Part shown: positions 29,573-56,361 of the stretch, piece after piece
Numbering within the stretch: the first letter of the stretch is position 1
Layout of the letters: each line of letters opens with the position of its first letter
Assembly (NCBI RefSeq): GCF_003207895.1
Contig: NZ_NKUB01000003.1
Span: forward strand, 124,001-188,000
From: Komagataeibacter swingsii
GTDB taxonomy: Bacteria > Pseudomonadota > Alphaproteobacteria > Acetobacterales > Acetobacteraceae
Length of the DNA stretch: 64,000 bases
Reading direction: 5' to 3'
Notes under the pieces: generated by a model
Database searches by the model: none
Told to the model about the DNA's origin: nothing
Seen by the model: only the letters and a program-made list of their open reading frames with translations
Translations under genes and position numbers: made by a program

Positions 29573-31045
29573 ATGGATATCGGGTGGAGAAAAATTTTTG
29601 CCTCACACTCGAAAGATGAGAAAGAAACACTTCAGGAAAATATCCGCAAAAAACTCGTTGCTGCCATTGAAAGCGGCAAGATCCGTTCCGGCACCCGCCT
29701 TCCCTCAAGTCGCCAACTGGCGGATTTCCTTGGCATTGCCCGCATAACGGTGGTCATGGCCTACGAACGGCTGATTGATGACGGGTATATCGTCAGCCGC
29801 TTGCGTAGCGGTATGTATGTTAAAGACGAAGTCAGCCGTCATCTTGCCAGACAGGAAGATGAACAGGCGGCACGCCCTGAAAATCTGGTTAACTGGGACA
29901 AGCACATAAAATTGCAGGTATCAAACCTGAGGAATATTTCAAAACCAAGGAATTGGCAGGACTATAAATACTGTTTTTTATTCGGGCAGCTTGATTCAAG
30001 CCTTTTCCCTACAAGGGAGTGGCGGGAAAGCATGAAAAAAACCGTTAATCTCAGGGGGCTGGGTCTTTGGGTTGGCGACATGATTGATGAAGATGACCCC
30101 GACCTTCTTGAACAGATATGCCTGCAAATCCTACCCCGACGGGGCATATGGGCGTCGGAACAGGAAATTATCATTACAGTCGGGGCACAGCATGCCCTTT
30201 TTATGGCGTTGAAAATACTCGTATCATCATCAACAGATTTTGGTATTGAAGACCCTTCCTATACTGACGCGCGCAATATGGTCCAGCTTCATACCTCCCG
30301 GATAAAAAATCTGAAGATGGACGATCAGGGGGTCATACCCGATGATGATTTCAGCCAATGTCAGGTTGTACTCCTTACTCCGGGGCACCAATGCCCAACT
30401 ACCGCCATCATGTCCCCACAACGCCGTATGGAAATACTGGAAGTCGCCCAAAAGAAAGACATGGTCATTATAGAAGATGACTATGACGCAGACCTGTTTT
30501 CAGAAGGGCAGGCCGGATCAGCCCTGAAAAGCATGGATACGCAGGGACGTGTCATCCATATCGGGAGCCTGTCCAAAATACTGGCGCCGGGCCTGCGGAT
30601 TGGTTACATCGTGGCGTCCCCTGCCATAATACGGGAATTGCGTGCCCTACGTCGGCTTATGCTCCGTCATCCCCCACGCAATAACCAGAAAACCCTGAGC
30701 GTGTTTATCGCCTTGGGCCATTACAGATCCCACTTGAAAAAAATGGGCGCGCAGTTACATGAGCGTGCAATATTAATGGATAAATTGCTGCCCCATTACC
30801 TGCCGAACTATAAAATCATGCGATCTGCCGGTGCATCCAGTTTCTGGATTCAGGGGCCTGCCCATCACGATGCGACAAAACTGGCCCATGAGGCCAGAAA
30901 ACATGATGTATTAATCGAACGGGGCGATATATTCTTCAGTAACCCGAAAGCCGGGCAATCATGCTTCCGCATGGGGTTTTCCTCCATTCCCTATGAACGG
31001 ATCGAAGACGGACTGAAAATACTGGGGTCACTTATTCCATCCTGA
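29573..31045 (+). CDS. MocR-type PLP-dependent GntR transcriptional regulator
   Basis: 490-residue fusion of a GntR winged helix (residues about 18-80: LQENIRKKLVAAIESGKIRS, GTRLPSSRQLADFLGIAR, VVMAYERLIDDGYI) to an aminotransferase-fold domain (from about 130). The PLP lysine is expected in IGSLSKILAPGLRIGYI. MocR proteins sense PLP-amino-acid adducts; TauR, PdxR and GabR are members. Codon use is more AT-rich than the core genes around it. The ATG at 29573 with an AGGGACG site is preferred over a GTG six bases earlier. It is convergent with a DMT transporter, a pairing often seen for MocR proteins. Confidence 0.88.
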   Translation: MDIGWRKIFASHSKDEKETLQENIRKKLVAAIESGKIRSGTRLPSSRQLADFLGIARITVVMAYERLIDDGYIVSRLRSGMYVKDEVSRHLARQEDEQAARPENLVNWDKHIKLQVSNLRNISKPRNWQDYKYCFLFGQLDSSLFPTREWRESMKKTVNLRGLGLWVGDMIDEDDPDLLEQICLQILPRRGIWASEQEIIITVGAQHALFMALKILVSSSTDFGIEDPSYTDARNMVQLHTSRIKNLKMDDQGVIPDDDFSQCQVVLLTPGHQCPTTAIMSPQRRMEILEVAQKKDMVIIEDDYDADLFSEGQAGSALKSMDTQGRVIHIGSLSKILAPGLRIGYIVASPAIIRELRALRRLMLRHPPRNNQKTLSVFIALGHYRSHLKKMGAQLHERAILMDKLLPHYLPNYKIMRSAGASSFWIQGPAHHDATKLAHEARKHDVLIERGDIFFSNPKAGQSCFRMGFSSIPYERIEDGLKILGSLIPS

Positions 31046-31161
31046 CCAGAAATATTATTTGGCCAGTATTCGTCATGGTTCTTATCTATTGTGAAAATAA
31101 TATGACATATGCCTTAACAGTCCCGCATGGATGCGCTGTGTGTCCAGCGCATAACCCGATG

Positions 31162-32103
31162 TCATGTTTTTCTGTGGGCGGCAATGCATGAAAGTACGCT
31201 GCTGACCACCAGCAGGAATGCCATCACTTCCAGGGGATGCGGCGCCCTTTGTTCCCACAGAAAGCCATAGAGCAATGCAAACAGGGTTTCAAACAGGATC
31301 ATCTGTCCGACCATGGTGAGAGGAAGGAGACGACTCATCCGGTTCCACAGGGCATTGCCACAGATTGAGGCAAGGAACGCGATCCCGACCGAAACGGATA
31401 TGAAACGCTCCCATCCCTGCGCGGTATGATGGGTATTGGCCAGCAGCCAGGCCATGGGGGCAAGCAGCACGGCCTGGGCGCCAGTCATAACGCCGGTAAG
31501 CAGGTTCCATTCATGTCCTGAAATATGATGAAGCCGCCCGAGGCAACGGCTGTTCCACACCACATAGGTACTCCATGATGTCAGCGCGGCCAAGGCGCAG
31601 AACAGTCCGGATATGGATGATCCCGAAGGTGTCGCCACAAGAATGGCCTGACCGCCGATACACAACACGCCTGCGCCGCATAGGACCAGCGATGGGGCAA
31701 GCGCCCTGAGGGAGACAGCACCAGCCTCACGGCTTCCGATCAAGGTTACGATGACGGGAAGGAAGCCGGTAATAAGCGAAGTCAGGGCTATGCCGCCTAG
31801 CTGCACGGCCATGGAAAGCAATATATAGTAAAGGACATTGCCCAGGAGCGCGAGCCAGAACAAGGCCAGCCAGTCCTGCCGTGTCACGGTGCGGGAAAGT
31901 ACAGGCCAGCGGGGCGCTATCAATACGCAGGCAAACACGCCATAGGCCAGATAACGGCCGACCGCGAGTTGCATCGGCGTAAAGCTTCCCACCAGTTCCG
32001 GCGCCAGGAAAACCAGTCCCCACAAGGCCCCTGCCCCGGCGCCACATAAAACGCCAAGGGGAACCTGCCGGGGGGGCACCAGAAGTGTCTTTGTCGCGCT
32101 CAC
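31162..32103 (-). CDS. EamA/DMT family transporter
   Basis: 313-residue inner-membrane protein with about ten helices in two EamA repeats (GAGAGALWGLVFLAPELVG at the start; ALAALTSWSTYVVWNSRCLG opening the second half). DMT proteins mostly export amino acids and related metabolites; the substrate is unknown. Its gene is convergent with the MocR regulator and about 240 bases downstream of phnX on the same strand. Confidence 0.85.
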   Translation of the reverse strand: MSATKTLLVPPRQVPLGVLCGAGAGALWGLVFLAPELVGSFTPMQLAVGRYLAYGVFACVLIAPRWPVLSRTVTRQDWLALFWLALLGNVLYYILLSMAVQLGGIALTSLITGFLPVIVTLIGSREAGAVSLRALAPSLVLCGAGVLCIGGQAILVATPSGSSISGLFCALAALTSWSTYVVWNSRCLGRLHHISGHEWNLLTGVMTGAQAVLLAPMAWLLANTHHTAQGWERFISVSVGIAFLASICGNALWNRMSRLLPLTMVGQMILFETLFALLYGFLWEQRAPHPLEVMAFLLVVSSVLSCIAAHRKT

Positions 32104-32338
32104 TCTATTTTTCCCTTCGTGGAGCGTGACATATTATTACGTTCCTGAATTTTGTAATCCCGATTATGACTTAAAATGCAACAAAAACGCGTTTATGATG
32201 AAATCCGGCTTTATGCTGGCCGACCCCTCAATACCCGTACCCGGATAATCCTGCCGCCCGGGGTTGATATTTCCGGGCTGTTGCCCCTGCCCTGCGTGCC
32301 CCCTTTCCGCCACGCGCAGGTATTCCTGTGGATGGCCC

Positions 32339-33151
32339 TCAGGGATATTCGCCACGGGCCATGCGGCCGTCGAATGCCCATAACACAGGCAGGAGGTCCG
32401 CGACCGAATCAATAACCACATGCGCGCCCGCCGCGGTCAACTGGGCGTAAGCCGCTGCACGCCTTGCCGCGAATTCCGTGGCTGGCAGGGCCGCCATTTC
32501 GTCCGATGCGCAGCCAAGGGCGTTGCCACTCAGCGCCACGCCGACCGTCCATGCGCCTGCGTTGAGGCCTTCACCGATCCCCACGGGGGTATCGTCAACC
32601 TTTACGGTGGCACGGGTGGGCCAGACGCTCATCTGCGCCAGGGCATGCCAGATCATGAAGGGGCTGGGTCGGCCTTCCGGCGTTTCCCCCGAACAGACAA
32701 GGCTGTCGACATCAACCCCCTGCCGCGCGGCGACAGGCTGGATTTCGTTCATGATTTCGCGTGTGTAGCCCGTCGTGGACCCGATCTTCAGCCCGCCCTG
32801 CCGCATGGCCGCCAGCACGTCCGCCGCACCGGGGATGATATCGGCGTGCCTGCTGGCGACCGAGATGTTTTTGGGCACGAAGACGGCATATATCGCATCG
32901 ATGTCCTGCTCGGTTGGGGGGCTGCCATGGCGCTGGCGCCATGCCGCGTGAATACGCGGCTGGGCCAGCAGGGCCGCGATATGCGGACGCTTCGCCATGC
33001 CCATCGGCAACCGCGCTTCCTCGATCGTAATGGCCACGCCGAATTGCGCGAAGGCTTCGACAAAGACCCCCATCGGGGCGCGTGATCCGTAATCGACCAG
33101 CGTGCCGGCCCAGTCAAAGATGACGGCCCTGAGATGCCTGAATGACTGCAT
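32339..33151 (-). CDS. phnX: Phosphonoacetaldehyde hydrolase (phosphonatase)
   Basis: Hydrolyses phosphonoacetaldehyde, the PhnW product, to acetaldehyde and phosphate. The start MQSFRHLRAVIFDW after AGGAAA gives 270 residues, the family length. HAD nucleophile Asp13 is in VIFDWAGTLVDYGS, and the Schiff-base Lys54 in PMGMAKRPH sits where Lys53 is in the Bacillus cereus enzyme; this lysine separates phosphonatases from other HAD enzymes. Later HAD motifs: GSTTGYTREIM and VKVDDTPVGIGEGLNAG. The phnW stop is 28 bases upstream; the two form an operon. Confidence 0.95.
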   Translation of the reverse strand: MQSFRHLRAVIFDWAGTLVDYGSRAPMGVFVEAFAQFGVAITIEEARLPMGMAKRPHIAALLAQPRIHAAWRQRHGSPPTEQDIDAIYAVFVPKNISVASRHADIIPGAADVLAAMRQGGLKIGSTTGYTREIMNEIQPVAARQGVDVDSLVCSGETPEGRPSPFMIWHALAQMSVWPTRATVKVDDTPVGIGEGLNAGAWTVGVALSGNALGCASDEMAALPATEFAARRAAAYAQLTAAGAHVVIDSVADLLPVLWAFDGRMARGEYP

Positions 33152-33179
33152 TTTTAAAATTTCCTGCTCGAAAAACGGT

Positions 33180-34412
33180 TCAGGCCAGGGCGGCGGCATC
33201 GCGCGCCGCCAGGCTGGCGGTGGACGGCGCGGCATGGGGAACGCCCAATACCGCCAGGGATTCCTGTGCCGCGCTAATGACCCTTTGCATGACATCCGGC
33301 CCGAAATGGCCAATGCAGCCGATACGGAAACTGTCGACACGTGTCAGTTTTCCGGGGTAAATGATGAAGCCTTTTTCTTTCATCAGGTCATAAAAATTCC
33401 TGAAATCAAATAATTCATGCCCCGGCGTAAGAAACGTAACAATAATGGGAGACAGCCATTGTTCTTCCAGCAATGTCTCGAAGCCCAGCGCCTTCATGCC
33501 GGCAACCAGCGTGTCACGGTTGGCGGTATAGCGTGCGAGCCGGGCAGGCTGGCCCCCCTGGGCCATATACAGCCGCAAGGCTTCAACAAAGGCGGCCACG
33601 ACATGGGTGGGGGGTGTAAAGCGCCATTGCCCCGTGGTGTTCATGGTGCGCCACTGTTCGTGCAGGTCCAGGCTCAGGGAGTGGCTGCGTCCCTTCGCCT
33701 GCTCGAACGCCGTCTTGCGGGCAATGATGAATCCAAAACCCGGCACGCCCTCGATGCATTTATTGGCGGATGAAACCATGGCTTCGTACTGCAGGGTTGC
33801 AATGTCAAGGTTGACGGCGCCGAATGCGCTCATGGAATCAATCAGGAACCTGCGGCCGTGCGCCGCCGTAACCGCGGCGATTTCCTCTATCGGGTTCAGG
33901 ATGCCGGAACTCGTTTCGCAATGCACGACAATGACATGGGTAATGGCCGTATCTTCCGCCAGTATCCGGGCGACTTCCGGCCCGCGCGGCGGACTGAAAT
34001 CCCCCTTGTCCAGCACCCGGCATGCGCGGCCCAGATAGCCAAGTGTCCTGGCTATACGCTGCCCATAGGCGCCATTGGCAAGCACCAGCACCTTGCCGTC
34101 ATGCGGGACAAAACTGCCAAGCATGGCTTCGACACAGAAGGTGCCGCTTCCCTGCATCGGGATACAGTCATAATCGGTGGCATTGCCCGCGATTTCCAGC
34201 ACGGTACGCCGCAATTCAGCGGTCAGGTCGCGGAATTCCTGATCCCACGATCCCCAGTCCCGCATCATGGCCGCACGTGTTCGGGGCGCGGTTGTAAGGG
34301 GGCCGGGGGTCAGGAGATAATGGTCGGGTTCCGCCCGCAGGTCGTGCGGGTCAAGGGAAGCGCGCTCGATTGTATCTGACATGTCACCACTCGCCTGATT
34401 GGGAATGGACAT
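33180..34412 (-). CDS. phnW: 2-aminoethylphosphonate--pyruvate transaminase
   Basis: PLP enzyme that moves the amino group of 2-aminoethylphosphonate to pyruvate, yielding phosphonoacetaldehyde and alanine. The protein has the family opening YLLTPGPLTTAPRTRAAMMRDWGSWDQEF (read in two blocks), PMQGSGTF, and the PLP lysine in SSANKCIEGVPGFGF. The frame from 34412 gives 410 residues; a Met at 34382 would be closer to the common 370-400. It forms an operon with phnX and is divergent from a LysR gene (80 bases), which probably controls it. Confidence 0.94.
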   Translation of the reverse strand: MSIPNQASGDMSDTIERASLDPHDLRAEPDHYLLTPGPLTTAPRTRAAMMRDWGSWDQEFRDLTAELRRTVLEIAGNATDYDCIPMQGSGTFCVEAMLGSFVPHDGKVLVLANGAYGQRIARTLGYLGRACRVLDKGDFSPPRGPEVARILAEDTAITHVIVVHCETSSGILNPIEEIAAVTAAHGRRFLIDSMSAFGAVNLDIATLQYEAMVSSANKCIEGVPGFGFIIARKTAFEQAKGRSHSLSLDLHEQWRTMNTTGQWRFTPPTHVVAAFVEALRLYMAQGGQPARLARYTANRDTLVAGMKALGFETLLEEQWLSPIIVTFLTPGHELFDFRNFYDLMKEKGFIIYPGKLTRVDSFRIGCIGHFGPDVMQRVISAAQESLAVLGVPHAAPSTASLAARDAAALA

Positions 34413-34492
34413 AACAGAGCGGAATGATTTAGATTTGTAAAATCGATAAAATTGATCCTTTCAACGATTTTTCTTATACGGCAGTCAAGCCA

Positions 34493-35401
34493 GTGCAATA
34501 TGTCCAGCTTCGCGCTTTTCATGCTGTCGCCGAACATGGCAGCTTTTCCCGTGCAGCCGGGGCGCTGGGCCTGACGCAGCCCGCGATTTCCGATCAGGTG
34601 CGGCGTCTGGAGCAGGAATTTGGCGTCACCTTGTTCAACAGGCGGGGCCGTGTGGTAGAACTGACCGATCTGGGACGACGGCTGTTACTGACCACACGGC
34701 AGATGTTTACTTATGAACGCAATGCACGCCAGTTACTTTCGGCAGAAGGCGCATTGGATGCGGGCAGCCTGCTGATGGTAACGGACGCGCCGGATCTGGC
34801 CGTTAAGATAATAGCAGCTTTCCGCATACATTATCCCAACGTCATCATTTCCCTATCCATTACGAATGCGGAAGCCTGCCTGGCCCGTGTGCTGGATAAT
34901 ACGGCGGATATGGCCGTATGCGCCATCTATCCATCGGATTCCCGTATTCGTGGCCAGGAATTGCGGCGTGAAAAATTGATGGCCATCGTCCCCGATACCG
35001 ATGACTTTGATGAACATGGCCTCACTTTTTCAGAATTCGTACAATATGGCCCCATTTTCCGCGAAGCCCAGTCTATTACGCAACGCCTGCTTTCCAAAGA
35101 ACTGAGCCGGCGCGGCATCCAGGTTACCCCTACCCTCCTGATTGATGGCCGTGAAGGCATGATTGAGGCCGTGGCCCATGGCCTGGGCGTCGCCGCCATA
35201 TCCCCCAGCGAATTCATAGGTAATGACCGGGTCCGTCTGGTGCCCCTTATCGGGGCAGAGGAAGAAATGATCGAATATATCGTCTCCCTTGCCGATCGCC
35301 CGCCATCAAACCTGCTGGACGCCCTTCACGCCATTGCGCCTGAAATGGAAGCATCATCCGTTTCCTCTCCTGCGCAGGCAACATCACGGCGCAAGTCATG
35401 A
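34493..35401 (+). CDS. LysR family regulator of the phnWX operon
   Basis: 302-residue LTTR. The N-terminal helix-turn-helix is clear: [49 protein letters not shown]. The effector domain follows. It starts at a GTG and is divergent from phnW; the 80-base AT-rich gap holds ATCGAT- and ATTGAT-like half sites around 34441-34455. Divergent LysR genes typically activate their partner, so control of 2-aminoethylphosphonate use is inferred from position. Confidence 0.88.
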
Positions 35402-35488
35402 TGAACAGCCGCAATAGGATCATGTAATCCGCCGCATGGCTTGCGATGGCGGTCCGTTAGCCGGGCAATCCATGGACTTCACGCCGCA

Positions 35489-36346
35489 TCATAATTTGGG
35501 CAGCGTGTGGCGGATATGCGCGGCAAACCGTTCGGCCAGGTCGTTGCCTGCAACCTTGTCAAACGCGATGGTTATCCCCAGTTGTGGCAGGCCCGGCAGG
35601 CTGGCGTCCGGCCCCAGTTCCAGCAGGTCAGCCGGCACGGCGGGACGGGTCAGCACGGCCACGGCCTGGCCGGAACGGACAACGGCCGTCAGCCCCGCCA
35701 GGCTGGCGCTGGCATAGGCGATCCGGAAATTCCTGCCATCATGCTCCAGACTGTTCAGGACAGCCTGATGGTCAAACGTGTCCACTTCCGTCAGGGCAAG
35801 GGGGAGCGGCGTGCTGTTCCAGACCGGAAAGCCCGCCCTGCCCACCCATACCAGTGGCTCCACACGGATAACATCATCGTTTGCATGCGGGTTGACGATG
35901 GAGACAAGGGCCAGATCCAGTTGGTGCCGTTCCAGCATCCTGTTCAGTCTTTGCGTTGACCCGCAAACGATTTCAATCAGCACATCCGGATGCGCACTGG
36001 TAAAGCTTCCGACCAGGCCCGGCAGGAAAGCGGCTGCATAATCATCCGGACAACCAAAACGCACGCTGCCGGACAGGCCCCGCCCTGTCAGGTCAGCCAG
36101 CGCGCGGTCATGCGCGCGCAGGATGTCACGCGCATGCGCCAGCAGGCGAAGGCCATGCGCGGTCAGTGTCACACCACGCCCACCCCGGTTGAGCAGGCAA
36201 CGACCCGTCAGTTCTTCCAGCCGTTTGACCTGCATGCTCAGGGCGGACTGGGTTTTGGCCAGCCGCAGGGCAGCCCGGCTGAGCGATCCGGTATCGGCTA
36301 TGGCGCTGAAGGACCGTAAGAGGTCAATTTCCAGATTATAGGACAC
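35489..36346 (-). CDS. dgdR: LysR family regulator, DgdR-like, next to dgdA
   Basis: 285-residue LTTR with IDLLRSFSAIADTGSLSRAA, LRLAKTQSALSMQVKRLEEL and CLLNRGGRGVTLTAHG in its DNA-binding part. It is divergent from the dialkylglycine decarboxylase gene with about 110 bases to the chosen dgdA start. This mirrors the known dgdA/dgdR pairing of Burkholderia cepacia, where DgdR is a LysR-family regulator of dgdA. The name rests on this position, not on residue identity. Confidence 0.75.
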   Translation of the reverse strand: MSYNLEIDLLRSFSAIADTGSLSRAALRLAKTQSALSMQVKRLEELTGRCLLNRGGRGVTLTAHGLRLLAHARDILRAHDRALADLTGRGLSGSVRFGCPDDYAAAFLPGLVGSFTSAHPDVLIEIVCGSTQRLNRMLERHQLDLALVSIVNPHANDDVIRVEPLVWVGRAGFPVWNSTPLPLALTEVDTFDHQAVLNSLEHDGRNFRIAYASASLAGLTAVVRSGQAVAVLTRPAVPADLLELGPDASLPGLPQLGITIAFDKVAGNDLAERFAAHIRHTLPKL

Positions 36347-36375: not shown

Positions 36376-37779
<1,404 letters not shown>

Positions 37780-37896
37780 AAGACTGTTTGAAAACAACTT
37801 ATTGATCAAAGAAAATAAAGGTTTTTGGGCGCCGTCTTTTTGAAAAAAGGCGGTGTTCCTTGAAGCTTTTGCAAAAAGCTTCACCGAAAACGTCCT
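37780..37896. repeat. Nested-palindromic intergenic repeat, copy E (inverted orientation)
   Basis: Runs in the opposite direction to the other copies: outer arm AAGACTGTTTGAAAACAACTT, then the AAAGGTTTTTGGGCGCCG arm, the GCCGTCTTTTTG / AAAAAAGGCGG hairpin, the GAAGCTTTTGCAAAAAGCTTC hairpin and CACCGAAAAC. It begins at the dgdA stop codon and may end its transcript. Confidence 0.8.
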
Positions 37897-38082
37897 TATG
37901 ACTGCAAGATGTTTCCGGGAAGACTGTTTCAAGCAGTCCTTGATGGCGGCATAAATATTTTCCGCAGTCAACCAATCGATGCCGCCTGACAGTTCAAAAA
38001 TATTAAATACGTTACTTGTTACGCCTGTTTCCAATATATCATTTAAGAACAATAAAAGTTTTTTTGGTGCCACCATTTTATA
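37897..38082. other. Spacer between two repeat copies, no assigned gene
   Basis: About 185 bases between repeats E and F. The minus strand is open across it and reads protein-like text (SNVFNIFELSGGIDWLTAEN), which may be a relic of a gene destroyed by repeat insertion. Too short to assign. Confidence 0.4.
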
Positions 38083-38246
38083 AGAGACTGTTTGAAAAGT
38101 CAGTTCATGATAGCGCTTTAAAATTAAAGGAAGTTTTTGGTGAAGCTTTTTGCAAAAGCTTCGAAAGAATACCGCCCTTGTAAGAAAAAGGCGGCACAAA
38201 AAAACTTTTATTTTTTTTATCAATGAATTGTTTTCAAACAGCTTCT
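38083..38246. repeat. Nested-palindromic intergenic repeat, copy F (complete)
   Basis: Near-complete match to copy A over its full length: AGAGACTGTTTGAAAAGTCA, TCATGATAGCGCTTTAAAAT, AAGTTTTTGGTGAAGC, the GAAGCTTTTTGCAAAAGCTTC hairpin, a decayed GCCGCC hairpin, AAAAAAACTTTTATT and GTTTTCAAACAGCTTCT. Differences from copy A are mostly single bases and short T-run length changes. Confidence 0.85.
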
Positions 38247-38725
38247 AAAAAAGGCAGCGTTTTTTGAATCCTTTCAAAAATCCGCGTAAAATTTATTTTT
38301 AATTTCATGGTAATATTATCAATAAAAATATCGTTCTTCTATGGTGCTTTTATATTTGAAATAATATTTCAGGCTCAATCAATATGCGATCCAGCCAGCC
38401 ATTGCAGCGCTAGGGATCAAGGAACCATCACTTTGTGGCGCAATAAAACGAGTTGGAAACCAGGGTGCCGTGATTGATGGCTCTGTTCGATGGCTTGTTC
38501 CCCTTATGCCGGTGCTGGGTGGCGGTACTTGCATTCTGATTGTCTGTAACGGCGGCATTGATCGTTGCAAGCAGGGAAAAGCCATGGATTGATCGCCCCG
38601 GCCGGACCAGGCAAGCCATTTACCCGTATCCCGGCTGCGTCATGCCGCTTTCCCTATCAGGGCATGGAAGATGAAATCGTCGAGACCCCCTTAAAACCAA
38701 GGGTTTCTAGATGAGGACTGAACGC
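38247..38725. other. Intergenic region with no recognisable gene
   Basis: About 480 bases between repeat F and the amino-acid permease stop. The first 130 bases are AT-rich. The rest has short open frames on both strands (for example minus 38379-38585) that resemble no family. Confidence 0.5.
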
Positions 38726-40126: not shown

Positions 40127-40367
40127 CAACGCATAACCTTGCATATATATTTGCAAAATTCCAACATGGACCACGATCATTCTTTATGGGGAAGGAAAAA
40201 GCAACAGGTTCTTTTTAACGAAAAATCATGTGTAACAATCACGTAAATTTACAGTATGCCAATCAATTCATTCCCAAACATCGCCGTATTATTTATGGCA
40301 TATTATGAAACCCTGACTGGGGCACCCCACCGCCATGCGGGATGACCCGACAGGCCGATACCGGCCA

Positions 40368-42688: not shown

Positions 42689-42726
42689 GATCATTTTTCC
42701 CTGTTTGTGCTATTTTTTTGGAAAAT

Positions 42727-43488: not shown

Positions 43489-43797
43489 TATTTCTCTCCA
43501 CTTGCATCAGGCAGTAAAAACATGATGGTGCCAGTAGTGACCGCGCGCGTCGTGAATCATAGAGCCAGTTGGGACAAAAGAGCGTGCCAATGCCGCCCGC
43601 GGGTAATGTTCGGGCGCATGGCGTCTTGATCAAGGGCGCGATCGGAAACGAACCGGGTGATTGCGGCCGGCCATCATGATCCGTGGGGCGTGACGTCAGG
43701 CCGGGACGGCCCCCTTCCCCGCCCTCGCTATTGCCCGCGGGAGTGTGTACATTGGGCGCCAGTCATTGAGCATGATCGTCATGAAAGGCTGGATCTG

Positions 43798-47419: not shown

Positions 47420-47719
47420 ATGACTACAATGTACGTTACTTACCCTGGCAAATCTGACGCATGGTTCGATCGCGACTATTACGTGGCGCACCATATGCCA
47501 CTGGTCATGGAAGCATGGGGCAGTATCGGCCTGAAATCCGCCACGGCCTTTTTCCCGACGGATACCGGCAACGGGACAGTCGCGATCTGTGAATGCCAGT
47601 TCCGGGATGAAAGCGCTCTTCAGGCTGCCCTCGCCTCCCCTGAAACCCCCCGGGTTCTGGCTGACCTGAAGAATTTCACAAAAATTGAGCCGGTTCTTCA
47701 GCGTGGCGTTAACATTTGA
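47420..47719 (+). CDS. EthD family protein
   Basis: 99-residue ferredoxin-like fold protein. The text YVTYPGKSDAWFDRDYYVAH, HMPLVMEAWGSIGLKS and GTVAICECQFRDESALQAAL is the EthD pattern (Y-x2-H-x-P-L-V). EthD-type proteins accompany some oxidases and monooxygenases, and their reaction is often unknown. The start MTTMYVTYPGK after GGGAAAA is preferred over an upstream Met at 47276 that adds a hydrophobic leader. A strong terminator follows. Confidence 0.82.
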   Translation: MTTMYVTYPGKSDAWFDRDYYVAHHMPLVMEAWGSIGLKSATAFFPTDTGNGTVAICECQFRDESALQAALASPETPRVLADLKNFTKIEPVLQRGVNI

Positions 47720-47815: not shown

Positions 47816-48352
47816 CATTTGTGGAAACCTTCTGGCAGTTGTCCTCCATTTTGAATGGTGGCCTGTTCTCCCGCCTCATGCGCCTTGTGCCCGGATGCAT
47901 GCCGCTGGCCATGCATGGTCGGCTGCCCCGGTCCATTCGCCTGCTGCCTGGTATCTGGCATTATAAAATGTGGAAATTGGCGTTGGCGCCATAAAGATAT
48001 TTACGTTACGAATTTATAGTAACGTAGCAATTTGTGCTTTCATTCCTGTAAAATTTACTCGCTTGGCCTCGGCCACAGGCTGATGTCGAAACGGCGTATA
48101 TTACAGAAAAAGAATGTTAACAGAAATCATGTTGTAATTTTGCCATATCCCGGACTGTTCAGCATCCAGCATGTTTGAGCGTTTGACAGATCATTGTTCT
48201 GAAAAATAGGATCGATAACGAAATTATGGTTCACAAGAAACAATATGAAATAACAACCAGGCAGCAACGGCCTTGTTCGTATGCATGCACTTCCTATAGG
48301 TATTTCTTCGCGCTGGGGCCAATATCTGTTCCGCATTCGACGTGAGAAAAAA
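47816..48352. other. Upstream region of the TonB receptor gene, no gene seen
   Basis: About 540 bases, AT-rich in its right half. It holds an 8-base inverted repeat TACGTTAC / GTAACGTA at 48002-48009 and 48019-48026 with a 9-base spacer, a possible regulator site, and several A/T runs nearer the gene that could be promoter elements. No convincing frame on either strand. Confidence 0.5.
48002..48026. promoter_or_regulatory. Possible operator palindrome upstream of the TonB receptor
   Basis: Perfect inverted repeat TACGTTAC - 9 bases - GTAACGTA in an AT-rich context, 327 bases before the receptor start. No known factor is recognised. Confidence 0.35.
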
Positions 48353-50806
48353 ATGACAAGATCCCGATTTTTTTGCTCCCTCCTCGTTACGACGGCTTTT
48401 ATTTCTGCGTTTTCGGAAACAGGCCGGGCAGCACCTGCCAGTAGCGGAAAAACTGTTCACCCCACCGCGAAACCCGTCCGTACGGCTGCCGCAACCCCGT
48501 CTGCCCCCCCGGCGCCAAAGGTTGAAACGCTGAACGCCGTCGGCATCCGCAGGCGTTCGCATGGCACCCAGATCAGCATGGGGCAACAGGTGCTGCGCAC
48601 CATGGTGCCCGGCACCAACCCGCTGAAGGCGCTGGCCCAGACCCCGGGCGTCGTATTCCAGTCGGACGACCCGCAGGGCGTGGATACCTATTCCGTCAAC
48701 CTGTACATGCATGGTTTTGCCCAGAACGAAATCGGCATGACCATGGATGGCATCCCGCTGGGTGAGCCGGTCTATCGCGCCTATAACGGCCTTAACCCCG
48801 TACAGGCCATTTCGTCCGAAAACGTCGAGCGGCTGGATGTCACCCAAAGCGCCGGCGCGGAAGGGGCCGCCAGCACCAACAACCTTGGTGGTTCCATCAA
48901 TTATGTCAGCAGCGACCCGAAAGACCGCATGGGTGGCCAGGCGGCCCAGACTTTCGGCAGCAACAAGATGTACCACACGTTCTTCCGCTTCGACAGCGGC
49001 GCGCTGAACAGGACGGGCACCAAGTTCTACGCATCCTACATGCGTAACGAGACCGGAAAATGGAAAGGCGGCAGCGACCAGTTCATGCAGCAGGTCAATG
49101 CCAAGATCGTGCAGCCCATCGGGCAGGACAGCAAGATCACCGCGTTCTTTGACTGGGATAACCTGCAGCAGACCAACTACCAGGATTATTCGCCTTACTG
49201 GATGCAGCATAACGGCACCGGCCTTGATAACTTCATCGGCACGCCGAATGGTTACCAGAACGCCTATAACTATGCCGTAGGCCATGGCCTGCCATCGAAT
49301 GTCTATGATGCGCGTGATTCGTCCTATTACGACAGCACCTCCATGTCATATGACTATTTTGGCGGCCTGACGGCGGACCTGGCGCTGACGAACCATGTCC
49401 GCTGGAAAACGACCATCTACGGACATGAGGAACTGACCCGCGGCACCTATACCAACCCCTATGGGTGCGGTTCGAACTATTATATCGCCGATCCCACCGG
49501 TACAAGCGCCGATGCGGCGTACTGTTCCAACAACCGGGTCGGCCTGAACGGCAACCCGATGTTTGAACAGACCAAGCGGCCCACGGACCACCGTTACGGC
49601 ATCCTGTCATCCGTGACCTATAATGTCGCCCATCACCAGATCACGGGCGGGGTCTGGTATGAAAACAACAAATACGTCTCAGACGAATATGGTTATGCCG
49701 TCCCCTTCCCGAAGGAAGGGCAGATGTGGGACCAGTATGGCAACCTGCCATCGGGCGGCCGCGAGCTGTGGGGCCAGACGTATAACACCAATACATTCAC
49801 TGCCTTTGTCGCGGATACCTACCATCCGGTCCACAACCTGGCGCTGCATTTCGGATTCAAGTCGATGCTGAATACGACCCGCGTCGGCCAGGATGGCAAT
49901 TACGAACCGTTTACGGGCGTCAGCGCCATTACCGGGGGCGAAAGCCTGACAACGGCAGAAGCCTTCATGCCGCATATCAGCGCGGACTGGACCTTCCTGC
50001 ACAATCATGAACTGTTCTTTGATATTTCAAAGAACGCCCATGCCTATTCCCAGTCGGGCTATAACCTGACGGCATCGCCCATGGCCGTGTCACAGGCCGC
50101 GTTTAATGACGCCAAGAGTTCGCTCCGGCCGGAAACGGCCTGGACCTATGCCGTCGGCTACCGTTACCACGACCGTCTGGTGCAGGGTTCGATCTATGCC
50201 TACCGCACCAATTTCAGCAACCGCATGCAGCAGATCGTGACCGGCGGCACGGTGTCCAGCCTGCTGTCCGAAGTGCGTAACGTTGGCGGCGTTACCATGA
50301 ACGGCGTTGATGCCGGTGTGACCCTGACCCCGGTTCGCGGTCTGGCGATTACGAACAGCATCAGCTACAATCATTCCACGTATGATAGCGACATGACGGC
50401 TTCCGGCGTCACATACGGAACGCACGGCAAGCAGGTGGTTGATTATCCCCGCCTTATGTACAAGGCGCGGGCGGCCTATAACTGGCGCAATGCCGAGTTC
50501 TATGTCGATGCCCAGTATATGGGCCAGCGCAGCTATTCCTATACGGGCGATTACCAGCTACCCAGCTACTGGCTGACCAATGTTGGCGCGCGCTATGTGC
50601 TGGGTGAGATGGGTCATTACAACAAGCACCTGTCTTTCATGCATAACGTGACCTTCGCCTTCAACATCTACAACATTACCGATACGAAATACGCATCGAC
50701 TGTTGGCCAGAATGGCTTCCTGATGAGCGATCCGAAGGGCCAGAACCAGTCCATCCTGCTTGGCGCGCCGCGTCAGTTCTTCGGCAGTGTGAAGGCTGAT
50801 TTCTAA
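48353..50806 (+). CDS. TonB-dependent receptor
   Basis: 817-residue outer-membrane receptor. A signal peptide (MTRSRFFCSLLVTTAFISAF, cut near GRAAPAS) leads into a Pro/Ala linker and a TonB-box-like ETLNAVGIRR. The plug domain follows (ALAQTPGVVFQSDDPQG, GMTMDGIPLGEPVY, NNLGGSINY), and a 22-strand barrel ends in aromatic QFFGSVKADF as outer-membrane proteins do. Ligand unknown (siderophore or another large nutrient). An upstream Met at 48281 is not followed by a signal peptide. It lies alone between two terminator-like regions. Confidence 0.92.
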   Translation: MTRSRFFCSLLVTTAFISAFSETGRAAPASSGKTVHPTAKPVRTAAATPSAPPAPKVETLNAVGIRRRSHGTQISMGQQVLRTMVPGTNPLKALAQTPGVVFQSDDPQGVDTYSVNLYMHGFAQNEIGMTMDGIPLGEPVYRAYNGLNPVQAISSENVERLDVTQSAGAEGAASTNNLGGSINYVSSDPKDRMGGQAAQTFGSNKMYHTFFRFDSGALNRTGTKFYASYMRNETGKWKGGSDQFMQQVNAKIVQPIGQDSKITAFFDWDNLQQTNYQDYSPYWMQHNGTGLDNFIGTPNGYQNAYNYAVGHGLPSNVYDARDSSYYDSTSMSYDYFGGLTADLALTNHVRWKTTIYGHEELTRGTYTNPYGCGSNYYIADPTGTSADAAYCSNNRVGLNGNPMFEQTKRPTDHRYGILSSVTYNVAHHQITGGVWYENNKYVSDEYGYAVPFPKEGQMWDQYGNLPSGGRELWGQTYNTNTFTAFVADTYHPVHNLALHFGFKSMLNTTRVGQDGNYEPFTGVSAITGGESLTTAEAFMPHISADWTFLHNHELFFDISKNAHAYSQSGYNLTASPMAVSQAAFNDAKSSLRPETAWTYAVGYRYHDRLVQGSIYAYRTNFSNRMQQIVTGGTVSSLLSEVRNVGGVTMNGVDAGVTLTPVRGLAITNSISYNHSTYDSDMTASGVTYGTHGKQVVDYPRLMYKARAAYNWRNAEFYVDAQYMGQRSYSYTGDYQLPSYWLTNVGARYVLGEMGHYNKHLSFMHNVTFAFNIYNITDTKYASTVGQNGFLMSDPKGQNQSILLGAPRQFFGSVKADF

Positions 50807-51781
50807 CCGGCAAGGACGCGCCCGACGCGAAAATGGATAACGCATTTCCCGGCATTGCATTCCTGTATATGCCGGGAAACGGGTTTCCGGGGCGCCTTTC
50901 GCCGTAAGCCCCGGTCCCATCCATGGGGTGCCGGTCGCATGGCTTTGAAATCCCCGGCCGCACTGTCCGCCAAAGTCATGCCGCATGCGGGACAGGCTGC
51001 CCGGACAGGGCCGCGGCACGGCAGGACACATGGCCGGAAAGATGTGACCTTCGGCCAGCAGTCTTGAAGGCGCCGGGTGGGCATCCCTGCCTGCCGGTCA
51101 TGGCGTAAGGCCGCATGTCCATGTGGCCTTGATGCGGCTGATCAGCCAGATGGCGTCCCTCCCTTTTCCTACCTTCAGGCAGGGTGTGTCAGCCAGACCG
51201 TTTGCGGTACGGCCGTCATGCCCGCCCGGTCTTTCATGATCCGGGCAAAGGCCCGTCTTTCCGGCTTTTCCGGTGCTTGCAAGACGCCTTGCCTGGAGCA
51301 GTTCCACTGAACTCTGGCTCAGTGAAATTGCTCTAACTCATTGTTTACCGGGCATCTTCACCAGTTCGAATGTGTCCATTCAAACTGGATCTGCTCTGGC
51401 GGTGACATGCCAGGGCGGGCCATGGCGGCTGGCGAAGGTCACGCCGTTCGGCATATGATGGGCTGCGTCACCAGGGTGGCGTCACGCCACAAAAAACGGG
51501 CCGGAGCCAATGCCGCCCCCACAGCCGGTCCCGGCACGGAATTCACTCCATATAATCGATATCGTAATATAGGATCGTGTTTTTCCGTGCTGGCGATCGG
51601 CGGGCTGAATTCCTTGGTCATGATCTGTATTGCGGCCTATGTTCCGGCGATGATTGTCCGTAACTGTCCGGCCCTGGCCTTCCCACGCTATTTTTAATGG
51701 CCTGATATTCAATAGCAGCCCTTAAACGCCTATACGTGTGGGGAATGTGATGCGCCATCCGCAGGAAAGGATAGAAACCGT
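50807..51781. other. Intergenic region with a palindromic element, no gene
   Basis: About 975 bases after the TonB receptor. GC-rich short frames exist on both strands, but none resembles a protein family. It contains the palindromic element at 51295-51399. The last 100 bases would hold the promoter of the following GntR gene. Confidence 0.5.
51295..51399. repeat. RIME-like double-hairpin palindromic element
   Basis: Two hairpins in tandem: GGAGCAGTTCCACTGA with TCAGTGAAATTGCTC (51295-51333), and ACCAGTTCGAATG with CATTCAAACTGGA (51360-51389), then TGCTCTGG. The layout and the GAGCAxTT / AATTGCTC edges resemble palindromic mosaic elements of the RIME type seen in alphaproteobacteria. Unrelated to the A-F repeat family. 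Confidence 0.55.
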
Positions 51782-52474
51782 ATGTTGCCATCTTCCATTT
51801 TCGATGCAGGCAGCGGGCAGAAACGGGGAGCCGCCTCGGTCATGGTCAGTGCGGCGTTACGGACCTCCATCCTGTCGGGCATATTGCCCGCGGGCCAGCC
51901 TTTGCCGCAGTCGGAACTGGCGACGGGGTTCGGCACCAGCATCATTCCCGTGCGTGAGGCGCTGAAGCAACTGGAGGCCGAGGGGCTGGTCACCTTCATG
52001 CCCAACCGGGGGGCCATGGTCACAGGCATGTCGGAACAGGATATTATTGAATATTCCGAAATCCGTGCCGCGCTGGAAGAAATGGCGGCCCGCCATGCGG
52101 TCAGCCGGATGTCGCGCGTTGACCTTGCGCGGGTGGAAGATGCCTATGACGCCTTTGTGCAGGGTGCGGCCCAGGCAACGGGCCGGCATCATTCAGGCGA
52201 CCTGAACCGGGCTTTTCACAACGCGATCTATGCCGCTGCCCAACGCCCGCGCCTGCTGGAAATGATCGATGACCTGCACATACGGCTTAACCGCTATATT
52301 CGCAGCCATCTGGAAATCGAAGGCCGCAAGGAAGTCACGGATATCGAACACGAAGCCATCATGCAGGCCTGCCGCCGCCGCGATGCGGAAGAAGTCGCCC
52401 GCCTGACAAAACGCCATATCCTGGAAGCTGCCGATATTTCCCTGCAGGTCATTCGCGGGCGCGTGCCGGACTGA
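51782..52474 (+). CDS. GntR family (FCD) transcriptional regulator near putA
   Basis: 230-residue regulator. Its winged helix includes VMVSAALRTSILSGILPAGQ, LPQSELATGFGTSIIPVREA, and LKQLEAEGLVTFMPNRGAMV. The FCD domain follows (YSEIRAALEEMAARHAV, FHNAIYAAAQRPRLLEMIDD). It is convergent with putA, 188 bases apart, so it may control putA; the ligand is not known. Confidence 0.85.
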   Translation: MLPSSIFDAGSGQKRGAASVMVSAALRTSILSGILPAGQPLPQSELATGFGTSIIPVREALKQLEAEGLVTFMPNRGAMVTGMSEQDIIEYSEIRAALEEMAARHAVSRMSRVDLARVEDAYDAFVQGAAQATGRHHSGDLNRAFHNAIYAAAQRPRLLEMIDDLHIRLNRYIRSHLEIEGRKEVTDIEHEAIMQACRRRDAEEVARLTKRHILEAADISLQVIRGRVPD

Positions 52475-52662
52475 CGCAGGCTCCCTTGGGGGGCACATAT
52501 CGCAAGGGCGCTAATGACGGGACATGACGGCCTGCGCCACGGTTCGCCCTGCAAGGCAGGCAGAAGCAGGGCGGACACGACGCCACCAGTGAACAGGCCA
52601 GCGAGAGGAAGCACGGGACCGGCCCAACGTCACGGATGGGCCGAACAGGGACAGGCGGCGGC

Positions 52663-55600
52663 TCAGCCCAGCGTCATCAGGCTGGCGTTGCCACCGGCGG
52701 CCGTGGTGTTGATGCTGATGGACTGTTCCTCCACCACGCATTCGGCATGGGGCAGGCCGCCGCCCGTCAGCCATGCGGAAACGATCGGCCGGTTTGCGTC
52801 ACACAGCGCCTGACAGGCGGCGGCAAAGGCCGCGTCATCCGTTTCACTCAGGATAACGGCGCAGGATTCCGCCGTGGCGCTGTCCACTGGCCTGACCCTG
52901 GCCCGCACGGCATCAGGCAGGGCGGCATACCATGCGGCCGGCATGGCATGGCCCGGCACAAGGGCGGTATTCCCCCCCGACAGCGCAAGGGATATCTGGT
53001 CATACAGCGCCGCCCTGCCGGTCGCCAGACACAGGACATTGCCGCGGCCTGTCAGTTTATAAAGGTTTTCCTCCCCTACCGGGCCGGGCAGGGTCAGCGT
53101 CCCCCCGGTCAGCGGCCTGTCACGCAGGGTTATGGCTTTATTGGCCGCAGCCGTTTCCCCCTGCCCCCGCAACCAGTCTGTCCATACGGACATGGCCACA
53201 GGTGCCTGTCCCTGTACCAGTCGGGGCAGGACCGGCGCCTGCGCCAGCAGCCTGCGCAGGATAAGCGGCCCGCCCGCTTTCGGGCCGGTCCCCGACAGGC
53301 CACGCCCGCCAAAGGGCTGGACGCCCACTACCGCCCCGATCGTATTGCGGTTTACATACAGATTGCCCGCGTCCACCCGGGACAGCACGTGTCTCACCGT
53401 GGATTCAATGCGCGTGTGCAGCCCAAATGTCAGGCCATAGCCGGTGGCATTGATATCGGCCAGTACCTGGTCAAGGTTGCGGCGGGAATACCGCAATACA
53501 TGCAGGACCGGGCCAAATACTTCCTTTTCCATCTCCTGCACGTTCAGGATTTCGATCAGGGTGGGGGAAACAAAGCTGCCGGCGGCACAGGATTCCGGCA
53601 TGGGCGGGGCAAAGACGGGCGCCTTTTTCTGGCGAAACGCCTCGATATACCGGGTAATGTCCTGAGCTGCCCGTGCCGTAATGACCGGGCCGACATCGGT
53701 GGACAGCAGGGCCGGATTGCCCATGGCCAGTTCCCGCATGGCGCCGCGCAGCATGGTCAGGACATGATCCGCGCACTCTTCCTGCACACATAGCAGCCGC
53801 AGGGCGGAGCAGCGCTGCCCGGCGCTGTCAAAAGCCGATGCCACGACATCCGCCACCACCTGTTCCGCCAGTGCCGATGAATCAACGATCATGGCGTTCT
53901 GGCCCCCCGTTTCCGCAATCAGCGGTACAGGCTGGCCGGTATGCGTGCGCCGTGCCACAAGCTGGCGGTTGATGGCCTGCGCCACGGCGGTGGACCCGGT
54001 GAACATAACGCCCGCGATCCGGTCATCGCCCACCAGCAGCGCGCCGATATCCCCCTCGCCGGTCAGCAGTTGCACGACATCCGCGGGCACCCCGGCTTCA
54101 TGCAGGACCCCCACGGCCATGGCCGCGACCAGCGGGGTTTCTTCCGCCGGTTTGGCCACAACCACGTTGCCCGCCGCAAGGGCCGCCGCAATCTGGCCCA
54201 GGAAAATGGCCAGCGGGAAGTTCCATGGGCTGATACACGCCACCGTGCCAAGCGGGACATGGGTGGCGTTATCAAAATCCCGGCGGATGGTGGCGGCGTA
54301 ATAGCGCAGGAAGTCCACGGCCTCGCGCAGTTCGGCAATGCCGTTTGGCAGGGATTTCCCCGCCTCCCGCGATAGCAGGGCCAGCAGTTCATCGCGGCGG
54401 GATTCCAGCAGGTCGGATGCCTTTTCCAGAATGCTGGCACGGGTCGCGGGCGGCGTGCCGGCCCAGCCGGCGCACGCGACCCCGGCCGCGGTCAGGGCCT
54501 GTTTTACGATTTCCGGTGTCGCCACAACGACCGTCCCGACCTGATCGCGATGATCGGCGGGGTTGGTCACGGGCATGGCCGCGCCATCAGGCCGCGCGCC
54601 GGCAACAAGGGGAACGGCTGTCCAGCTTTCCGGGGCCTTTCCCAGCCCGGCGGCCAGTTCGGACAGGACCCGGTCATCGGCCAGGTCCAGCCCCGCGGAA
54701 TTGCGGCGTTCCGTGCCGAACAGGTCGCAGGGCCTGCGTATTTCCGGGTGGGGCGCGCCATAGGGAACAAAACCGCGTGCGACGGCCAACGGGTCTTCCA
54801 CCAGCTTCGCAACCGGAATGGCGTCATCGCCGATCTGGTTTACGAAGGACGAGTTCGCACCATTTTCCAGCAAGCGCCGCACCAGATAGGCCAGCAGGGT
54901 TTCATGCGTGCCAACCGGGGCATAGATACGGGTCGGGCGGCCAAGTTTGTCCGGACCGACCACCTGCCTGTACAGTGGTTCCCCCATGCCATGCAGGCAC
55001 TGGAATTCATACGATCCGACTTCAAACGGTTCGCCAGCCAGCGTGTGGATGGTCGCCAGCGTGCGGGCATTATGCGTGGCGAACTGGGGAAAGATCACAT
55101 CGCGCGCCGCCAGCAGCTTGCGTGCGCAGGCGATATAGCTGATATCGGTGTGGCATTTGCGCGTAAAGACGGGAAAGTCGGGCAGCCCGTCAACCTGCGC
55201 TTTCTTGATCTCGCTATCCCAATACGCCCCTTTGACAAGGCGGACCATCAGGCGGCGGTTGCTGCGGCGCGCCAGGTCGATGATGTAATCCAGCACGTAG
55301 GGACAACGCCTGCCATAGGCCTGCACGACAAAGCCGATGCCGTTCCAGCCTTCCAGCCCCGGCGTGTGGCATAAGGCTTCCAGCAGGTCGAGCGACAGGT
55401 CGAGCCGTTCGCTTTCCTCCGCATCGATATTGATGCCGATATCGTAGCTGCGCGCCAGCAGGGTCAGTTCCCGCACCACGGGCAGCAGTTCGGCCATGAC
55501 CCGTTTGCGCTGGGCGCGGGCATAACGGGGGTGCAGGGCCGACAGCTTGATGGAAATGCCCGGGCGTTCATAGACGTTGGCGCCACGGGCGCTGCGCCCG

Positions 55601-56361
55601 ATGGCATGGATGGCGTGAAGGTAGTCCTGCCGGTAGCGGCGGGCGTCATGCGCGGTAAAGGCAGCCTCGCCCAACATGTCGTAGGAATAGGAAAAGCCGG
55701 CTTCTTCCAGCCTTACGCTGTTTTCGCGCGCCAGTTCGATCGTCTCGCCCAGCACGAACTGCTCCCCCATAAGCCGCATGGCGGCATCGACCGCCGAGCG
55801 GATGACAGGCTTCGTACTGCGCGAGACAAATCCCAGCAGGGCGGATTTCAGGGTCCCTTCGCCATGCCGGGCAACGATCACCCCCGTAAGCGCCAGCCCC
55901 CACGCGGCGGCATTGGCAAAAAGCGGCCGGTCGCGCGATACATGCGCCAGCCAGTCGCCATCGCCGATCCTGTCCTGGATCAGCGCATCGCGCGTGGGCA
56001 TGTCGGGAATGCGCAGCAGCGCCTCGGCCAGGCACATAAGCGCCACGCCTTCAGCCGAGGACAGGGCGAATTCCTGCACCAGCGTTTCCACAAGGCCGGG
56101 ATGGCGCTTCGCGCGCAGTCCCGTCGCAAGCCGGGTCGCCAGGGCGTCGGTCCGCGCGTTTTCGGTGGGATCAAGCGTTGCGGCGGGCGTCAGCGCCGCG
56201 ACACACTCGGCTTCCGGTCTGCGGATCGCCGCCATGACGGCCTGGCGCAGGGGGGAGCGGGATGAAAACGCGGGAGCGAACGTGTCATGAAAAGACATGA
56301 GTGCCTGTTCCGGTATGTAAGACGTTGCCCCTCCGGCGCGTGGCGCGGAAGGTTCTGGCAT
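52663..56361 (-). CDS. putA: Bifunctional proline dehydrogenase / L-glutamate gamma-semialdehyde dehydrogenase
   Basis: Oxidises proline to glutamate. At 1232 residues it is a long PutA without the N-terminal ribbon-helix-helix DNA-binding domain of E. coli PutA. The FAD-barrel proline dehydrogenase part runs to about residue 540 (ISIKLSALHPRY, VRLVKGAYWDSEIKKAQ, QCLHGMGEPLYRQV). The NAD aldehyde dehydrogenase part follows (SPWNFPLAIFLGQIAAALAAG, catalytic Cys near residue 851 in DSAGQRCSALR). About 190 extra C-terminal residues are probably the ALDH-superfamily tail of type B PutA. The start has a GGAGGGATC site; an internal Met at 56298 is the alternative. Confidence 0.94.
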   Translation of the reverse strand: MPEPSAPRAGGATSYIPEQALMSFHDTFAPAFSSRSPLRQAVMAAIRRPEAECVAALTPAATLDPTENARTDALATRLATGLRAKRHPGLVETLVQEFALSSAEGVALMCLAEALLRIPDMPTRDALIQDRIGDGDWLAHVSRDRPLFANAAAWGLALTGVIVARHGEGTLKSALLGFVSRSTKPVIRSAVDAAMRLMGEQFVLGETIELARENSVRLEEAGFSYSYDMLGEAAFTAHDARRYRQDYLHAIHAIGRSARGANVYERPGISIKLSALHPRYARAQRKRVMAELLPVVRELTLLARSYDIGINIDAEESERLDLSLDLLEALCHTPGLEGWNGIGFVVQAYGRRCPYVLDYIIDLARRSNRRLMVRLVKGAYWDSEIKKAQVDGLPDFPVFTRKCHTDISYIACARKLLAARDVIFPQFATHNARTLATIHTLAGEPFEVGSYEFQCLHGMGEPLYRQVVGPDKLGRPTRIYAPVGTHETLLAYLVRRLLENGANSSFVNQIGDDAIPVAKLVEDPLAVARGFVPYGAPHPEIRRPCDLFGTERRNSAGLDLADDRVLSELAAGLGKAPESWTAVPLVAGARPDGAAMPVTNPADHRDQVGTVVVATPEIVKQALTAAGVACAGWAGTPPATRASILEKASDLLESRRDELLALLSREAGKSLPNGIAELREAVDFLRYYAATIRRDFDNATHVPLGTVACISPWNFPLAIFLGQIAAALAAGNVVVAKPAEETPLVAAMAVGVLHEAGVPADVVQLLTGEGDIGALLVGDDRIAGVMFTGSTAVAQAINRQLVARRTHTGQPVPLIAETGGQNAMIVDSSALAEQVVADVVASAFDSAGQRCSALRLLCVQEECADHVLTMLRGAMRELAMGNPALLSTDVGPVITARAAQDITRYIEAFRQKKAPVFAPPMPESCAAGSFVSPTLIEILNVQEMEKEVFGPVLHVLRYSRRNLDQVLADINATGYGLTFGLHTRIESTVRHVLSRVDAGNLYVNRNTIGAVVGVQPFGGRGLSGTGPKAGGPLILRRLLAQAPVLPRLVQGQAPVAMSVWTDWLRGQGETAAANKAITLRDRPLTGGTLTLPGPVGEENLYKLTGRGNVLCLATGRAALYDQISLALSGGNTALVPGHAMPAAWYAALPDAVRARVRPVDSATAESCAVILSETDDAAFAAACQALCDANRPIVSAWLTGGGLPHAECVVEEQSISINTTAAGGNASLMTLG

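Follow-up and report, generated by a model that had tools for sequence, protein, structure and literature searches.

The systems closest to the locus described here are the hydrolytic PhnW-PhnX pathway for 2-aminoethylphosphonate (AEP), the 2,2-dialkylglycine decarboxylase DgdA of Burkholderia cepacia with DgdR, which we take to be its regulator, and the phospho-lyases represented by ETNPPL (6tor), 5g4i and the fused family PRK06148. A Chromohalobacter type of taurine nitrogen assimilation releases isethionate (cited in PMC3368415), and in yeast a horizontally acquired segment with a dialkylglycine decarboxylase and its own regulator, DGD1/DGD2, enables the use of 2-aminoisobutyrate nitrogen (accessible sections of PMC10169451). 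Here we analyse a 64,000-nucleotide stretch of the acetic acid bacterium Komagataeibacter swingsii (contig NZ_NKUB01000003.1, positions 124,001 to 188,000; hereafter the window) in which counterparts of these systems lie side by side. A block of ~22 kb next to a tRNA-Ser integration hotspot is probably a genomic island composed of four separately regulated salvage cassettes, with the chemistries that we propose below. Each pathway is of a known kind and the stack itself is rare; we found no description of it in the open-licence literature. The one paper that turned up on Komagataeibacter and AEP deals, in its accessible parts, with phosphonate biosynthesis in the family, and a word search of the main text of a 2026 paper on the Komagataeibacter mobilome returned none of the terms 'genomic island', 'tRNA', 'nitrogen', 'taurine' and 'phosphonate'.

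Extent, conservation and left border of the block

Genes were assigned by Pfam and NCBIfam-type profile searches followed by sequence searches of solved structures (PDB), and the window was compared across 19 Komagataeibacter genomes, this one and 18 others. The block common to the window and Komagataeibacter diospyri (genome G150) extends from ~29.4 to ~51.3 kb. Among the matches listed, it is present in these 2 of the 19 genomes, and K. diospyri is the only one of the 18 others with long, strong DNA matches to it. From left to right the block holds a MocR-type regulator, an EamA transporter, phnX and phnW with a divergent LysR gene, a LysR gene divergent from dgdA, a minus-strand group of YdfG-type short-chain dehydrogenase/reductase (SDR), Tpa-type aminotransferase, EamA transporter and APC permease (43.5 down to 38.7 kb), and finally a GntR/FCD regulator, a kinase, a phospho-lyase, an EthD protein and a TonB-dependent receptor; a GntR gene and putA lie beyond it. 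All four cassettes are together and in the same order in K. diospyri (contig C6, taken as NZ_BDLU01000006.1; MSKU 9, locus L005). The original prediction, made from the window alone, had clustered PhnW/PhnX, DgdA, an aminotransferase with a reductase, and a kinase with a phospho-lyase, together with their regulators, and the profiles agree with every one of these at its place. Its count of four or five enzymes dependent on pyridoxal phosphate (PLP) is matched by four PLP enzymes plus the MocR regulator with its aminotransferase-type domain, PutA not being a PLP enzyme, and the extent to 56.4 kb that it gave has to be shortened to that of the shared block. Three of the seven class III aminotransferases of the genome (PF00202, E<=1e-20) are found within 10.6 kb, an arrangement with a probability of ~1e-3 under random placement by a hand estimate.

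The block also differs in composition from its surroundings, with a G+C content of 50-60% for 28-52 kb and 60-69% outside (2-kb steps). G+C at third codon positions (GC3) is 0.53-0.74 in the 16 island genes, compared to 0.81 in two left-flank genes (an amidase-family gene at 25411 and gatB). In the comparison of the window with K. diospyri, alignments cover 97% or more of each of the 16 genes (for PhnX, counted from the trimmed start), and dN/dS values are 0.042-0.155; thus the set has been kept as working genes under purifying selection, and the stack looks to be maintained by selection. Their dS values (0.34-0.65) mostly exceed those of two upstream genes (0.26 and 0.32) and overlap those of putA and its GntR gene (0.38 and 0.40). 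Early stops in the K. diospyri phospho-lyase (residue 3) and TonB receptor (residue 12) both precede downstream start codons, which suggests that these open reading frames (ORFs) were called too long. Relatives of individual island genes do occur elsewhere in the genus, among them a YdfG-like reductase gene (see below) and, in many genomes, TonB-receptor-like genes of 65-74% DNA identity.

The left border is a tRNA-Ser(GCT) gene (28485-28577, plus strand; ARAGORN, Rfam), and this gene is an integration hotspot. Synteny with the other genus genomes breaks at the tRNA end or at most 250 bp past it in 18 of 18. Nine of the DNA matches stop at 28577, the exact tRNA end, and nine at 28627-28827; among the latter, the stop in G160 (28640) is a contig end. 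Among the matches listed, 9 of 11 other genomes have a PF00589 integrase match within ~8 kb of the tRNA end or overlapping the conserved piece, in one case a weak remnant only, and in G135, G164 and G165 this match overlaps the end of the conserved stretch. The tRNA end occurs a second time in G150 and G156, 2 of the 15 genomes scanned past the tRNA. In the window, the tRNA end is overlapped by an ORF (28528-28830, minus strand) with a probable remnant of a tyrosine integrase C-terminus; its translation contains IYRLSRHLGHSSVT, which we recognised by eye, and a Pfam search with it gave no match. A multi-copy repeat resembling an insertion sequence remnant follows (28831-29261), with many 68-74% copies across the genus.

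Some features of the border weigh against an island reading. No intact integrase was seen in the window beyond the apparent remnant, a second tRNA-end repeat as a right-border candidate is absent from the window and the 19.9 kb that follow, and the K. diospyri block and its tRNA-Ser are on different contigs. Because only the integrase remnant and one tRNA end are at hand, without direct repeats at both ends, we use the term island rather than intact integrative element. We infer that an integrase brought the island in, and the block was apparently acquired from elsewhere. The idea that the island had been relocated to another locus in K. diospyri was dropped, as contig breaks allow no decision. 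On the same K. diospyri contig as the island, an inverted match (L154, G150:C6:7082-14499) corresponds to 67.2-74.6 kb counted from the window start, and thus the shared accessory region may extend past the window.

Phosphonate, dialkylglycine and phospho-lyase cassettes

In the phosphonate cassette both enzymes of the known hydrolytic AEP pathway exceed their curated cut-offs: the AEP:pyruvate aminotransferase PhnW (33180-34412, minus strand) scores 486.2 bits with TIGR02326 (cut-off 400.8) and the phosphonoacetaldehyde hydrolase PhnX (32339-33160, minus strand) 335.1 bits with TIGR01422 (cut-off 220). The PhnX ORF spans 32339-33340, and its start is probably near 33160 because homology begins at residue 70-71. 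PhnX keeps the Asp of the DWAGT motif, which we take to be the nucleophile, and a Lys aligned to that of the solved enzyme, presumably the Schiff-base lysine. Also as in the known pathway, a LysR gene is divergent from phnW (34493-35401, plus strand); its best NCBIfam match is the AEP-associated LysR model TIGR03339, with 233 bits below the cut-off of 341. From these families and their context, PhnW would move the amino group of AEP to pyruvate, and PhnX would release phosphate and acetaldehyde. PhnX above the cut-off was detected in 2 of the 19 Komagataeibacter genomes, 9 of 41 from elsewhere in the family and 5 of 40 from the class. The count for the genus and the distribution of the block bear out the original view that such a stack is unusual, as far as Komagataeibacter is concerned. 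Unlike the described pathway, this one sits inside an amine island and has no recognised adjoining importer. The cassettes had been credited with their own transporters, and some transporters are indeed in the block; that none of them was recognised as an AEP or phosphonate importer, with the rest of the genome not searched for one, counts against our reading of this cassette.

DgdA (36415-37779, plus strand) matches the solved 2,2-dialkylglycine decarboxylase (PDB 1d7r) with 757.8 bits and, as in B. cepacia, is accompanied by a divergent LysR gene in the position of dgdR (35489-36346, minus strand; profile searches), here in an acetic acid bacterium. The six active-site residues given in the accessible sections of PMC10169451 (Q52, W138, M141, S215, K272 and R406) are all present. 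A class III enzyme near phnWX could instead be PbfA, which acts on hydroxy-AEP and is present in 13.49% of phnWX clusters according to the accessible sections of PMC8154272. However, the PbfA model NF049939 gives 265 bits against a cut-off of 525, and with the far higher DgdA score and the intact DgdA active site we ruled PbfA out and give it practically no credence. DgdA would convert 2-aminoisobutyrate and pyruvate to acetone, CO2 and alanine. At E<=1e-150 it is present in 19 of the 299 family genomes sampled, a count that includes the present genome. The yeast DGD1/DGD2 segment is similar in pairing an acquired decarboxylase with its own regulator and differs, in the accessible description (PMC10169451), in belonging to a eukaryote, in its zinc-finger regulator and in serving a single pathway.

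The next cassette begins with a GntR/FCD regulator (43657-44472, plus strand; profile searches), followed by an APH-fold kinase (44660-45742, plus strand; PF01636) and a PLP phospho-lyase of the ETNPPL/5g4i type (45766-47112, plus strand; ORF from 45757, start trimmed). The kinase and the phospho-lyase match the N-terminal and C-terminal parts, respectively, of the fused family PRK06148, which argues for their action in one pathway; in contrast to PRK06148 they are two separate genes, and the middle part of the fused profile is missing. The best solved relatives of the phospho-lyase are themselves phospho-lyases of the ethanolamine-phosphate family (5g4i, 353 bits; ETNPPL 6tor, 342 bits; next match 190), and the kinase gave one weak PDB match, to a homoserine kinase. 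At E<=1e-40 the kinase is found in 21 of 150 family genomes, including this one. The kinase is predicted to phosphorylate an amino alcohol and the phospho-lyase to release ammonia, phosphate and an aldehyde. Neighbouring genes in other Acetobacteraceae did not settle the substrate: near the closest kinase/phospho-lyase pair (L164) lie genes for a GntR/FCD regulator, a protein weakly resembling TonB receptors, a DAO oxidoreductase and an aldehyde dehydrogenase, and among the other pairs a peptide-type binding protein lies near two and an M20 peptidase near one. Downstream in the window are a small EthD-domain protein (47420-47719, plus strand; PF07110) and the TonB-dependent receptor (48353-50806, plus strand; ORF from 48281, start trimmed; PF00593, PF07715). 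An inverted repeat upstream of the receptor gene (48002-48026, TACGTTAC/GTAACGTA) is kept in K. diospyri and is a possible operator.

The taurine-type cassette and the edge regulator

The fourth cassette is built around a Tpa-type class III aminotransferase (41306-42694, minus strand), assigned by profiles and a structure search, and from the neighbour genes of its relatives this enzyme is best read as a taurine:pyruvate aminotransferase. We compared the best 80 aminotransferase loci kept by our scan, K. diospyri included, with up to 10 kb on each side and many of them cut by contig ends; the 79 relatives other than K. diospyri are 73-78% identical. At 12 of these 79 loci a MocR gene (at least 48% identity) and a YdfG-type SDR (49-54%) are both close to the aminotransferase, and in 3 more the SDR alone. 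TauA, with the protein of the Rhizobiales locus L017 as query, was found in 24 of the 80 loci, with identities of 66-100% at nine (L017 among them) and of 25-29% at 15; TauC was likewise found in 24. The L017 group has MocR, Tpa, SDR, TauA (TIGR01729, 340 bits, cut-off 304), TauB and TauC together, TauC scoring 313 bits, below its cut-off of 342, and TauB being read by eye. At 22 loci without TauA we scanned 59 of 160 candidate neighbour ORFs and found matches to sulfoacetaldehyde acetyltransferase (Xsc) in three, TauE in two and DctP in two. Close relatives of the enzyme are therefore linked in their genomes to taurine genes.

The MocR-type regulator at the left edge of the block (29567-31045, plus strand; profiles) is probably a TauR-like taurine regulator. 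Twelve genomes have a tpa-linked MocR of at least 48% identity, and in all 12 the window MocR finds its best match (49-52%) in this linked protein; other matches in those genomes reach at most 39%, among the matches listed. In six genomes that lack a linked MocR, a match at 1e-60 is absent from five, and in the sixth it lies elsewhere. Where the identity of the linked MocR is 37-38% (two genomes), one genome gives no other match and the other ranks it second, ~1 bit behind. The protein is formally over the cut-off for PdxR (NF052282, 333.7 bits, cut-off 320), and its orthologues are tpa-linked. Because its best matches are tpa-linked throughout the 12 genomes, the edge MocR most likely serves the Tpa operon ~8 kb away, an assignment to taurine use drawn from gene context. 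The taurine module thus seems to be split, with the phosphonate and dialkylglycine cassettes between its regulator and its operon.

The remaining genes of the cassette are a YdfG-type SDR (42727-43488, minus strand; PRK10538, 357 bits, below the cut-off of 411), an APC amino-acid permease resembling GabP (38726-40180, minus strand; TIGR01773, 364 bits, below 678) and a second EamA transporter (40368-41234, minus strand; PF00892; TIGR03340, a phosphonate-associated membrane protein, 183 bits, below 288). By family and context, the permease would import taurine, Tpa would move its amino group to pyruvate, the SDR would reduce sulfoacetaldehyde to isethionate, the EamA protein may export isethionate, and the TauR-like MocR would control the cassette. 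In comparing it with the Chromohalobacter-type system we assume the enzyme details of the latter. A Tpa-type aminotransferase with an SDR is common to both; here, the SDR is YdfG-like, an APC permease replaces TauABC and the regulator is at the island edge.

Several observations speak against taurine as the substrate. Fifteen of the 24 TauA matches are the distant ones, one of the 59 neighbour ORFs is a malonate symporter (MadM), which would suit beta-alanine, and the TauR box is not above chance, with one match at one mismatch against 2.05 expected (we took the operator to be CTGGACYTAA). The SDR is nearer to the YdfG-type structure 3asu (312.8 bits) than to the sulfoacetaldehyde reductase 6ixj (220 bits), so its closest solved relative is not an IsfD-type enzyme, and all 19 genus genomes have a second YdfG-like gene with 69-72% DNA identity to 42743-43473. 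On these last two grounds the SDR may be an ordinary YdfG, and a function as sulfoacetaldehyde reductase, suggested by context only, is possible. The aminotransferase and reductase could then act on beta-alanine or GABA, with malonate or succinate semialdehyde reduced to the hydroxy acid, as the GabP-like permease and the best score with YdfG, a 3-hydroxypropionate dehydrogenase, would also allow. In contrast, the close and distant TauA matches, Xsc near other relatives and a Rhizobiales locus that unites this kind of SDR with MocR, Tpa and TauABC favour taurine, and we consider the beta-alanine/GABA alternative unlikely.

Possible common role of the cassettes, and the flanking genes

The composite salvage island is real, and the question is whether its parts share a role. 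Separate occurrence of the cassettes in relatives, which the original prediction had named as a finding that would tell against it, holds in part: of the 80 aminotransferase loci, that of K. diospyri alone is accompanied by the other cassettes, if distant matches to single genes are disregarded. The four look like separate cassettes that were joined, not an ancient unit. It is a substantial possibility that they piled up by chance at an integration hotspot and have no common nitrogen programme. Sequence past the tRNA-Ser differs from the window in all 18 other genus genomes, integrases lie near it in 9 of the 11 searched, a common operator is not known (no systematic search for one was made), and the plasmids with the best DNA matches belong to different groups, Paraburkholderia for dgdA and Roseomonas and Azospirillum for tpa; no plasmid in PLSDB carries the whole stack, and no record covers 80% of either query. 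A pile-up fits less well with the joint retention of the four cassettes, in unchanged order and with purifying selection on their genes, by two species that have diverged to the dS values given above, and all four appear to be devoted to amine salvage. The cassettes might instead serve mainly phosphorus supply or removal of toxic amines such as 2-aminoisobutyrate. Phosphate would also be released by PhnX and the phospho-lyase, and 2-aminoisobutyrate inhibits yeast growth, an effect countered by DGD1 (accessible sections of PMC10169451). Yet the taurine and dialkylglycine routes yield no phosphorus, which makes this explanation improbable. LysR regulators, moreover, usually respond to the pathway substrate.

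For the salvage island that we favour, substrates, induction and nitrogen use are read from sequence. Nitrogen would be kept as alanine or ammonia and the carbon skeleton largely discarded; convergence on alanine would follow from the known chemistry of PhnW, DgdA and Tpa. More tentatively, and with considerable doubt, we propose that the island skims nitrogen: four chemistries would strip amino groups from non-protein amines, three of them via pyruvate, the skeletons (isethionate, acetone and acetaldehyde) would be discarded, MocR and the Tpa enzymes would bracket the phosphonate and dialkylglycine cassettes, and the phospho-lyase aldehyde may feed 2-methylcitrate genes. If so, this would fit a bacterium rich in sugar and ethanol and poor in nitrogen. 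A sugar- and ethanol-specialised cellulose and vinegar bacterium would gain nitrogen from animal, fungal and phosphonate amines through ready-made cassettes in nitrogen-poor habitats, and four growth traits, expected to be lacking in most of the genus, can be tested. The original prediction had missed the island at the tRNA, the connection of the edge MocR with Tpa, and the 2-methylcitrate genes.

PutA (52663-56361, minus strand; profile searches), a flavoenzyme/aldehyde dehydrogenase, had also been included in the stack. It forms a divergent pair with a GntR gene (51782-56361) that occupies other loci in five more genomes of the genus (G135, G159, G162, G164 and G165), and we therefore treat it as a separate accessory module; these separate loci and a G+C of 0.65 led us to reject putA as an island member. 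Its GC3 is intermediate (0.76) and its GntR gene is island-like (G+C 0.61, GC3 0.71), so that composition alone is undecided. TonB-receptor-like matches adjoin the GntR/putA pair in G135, G162 and G165. Beyond putA are a GSDH-like gene and then prpE, prpB, prpC and prpD-like genes of the 2-methylcitrate route (58223-63968), the prp genes having a strong DNA match only in this genome, 1 of 19 in the genus. It is speculation that propanal from amino-propanol phosphate could feed them.

The first EamA/DMT transporter gene (31162-32103, minus strand; PF00892) separates the edge MocR from phnX. At 38080-38249 there is an AT-rich, MITE-like dispersed repeat of ~165 bp with at least 12 close copies in the genome, part of an inverted-repeat region at 37784-38241, and a ~105-bp repeat with many copies across the genus (51289-51397) lies close to the right end of the conserved block.

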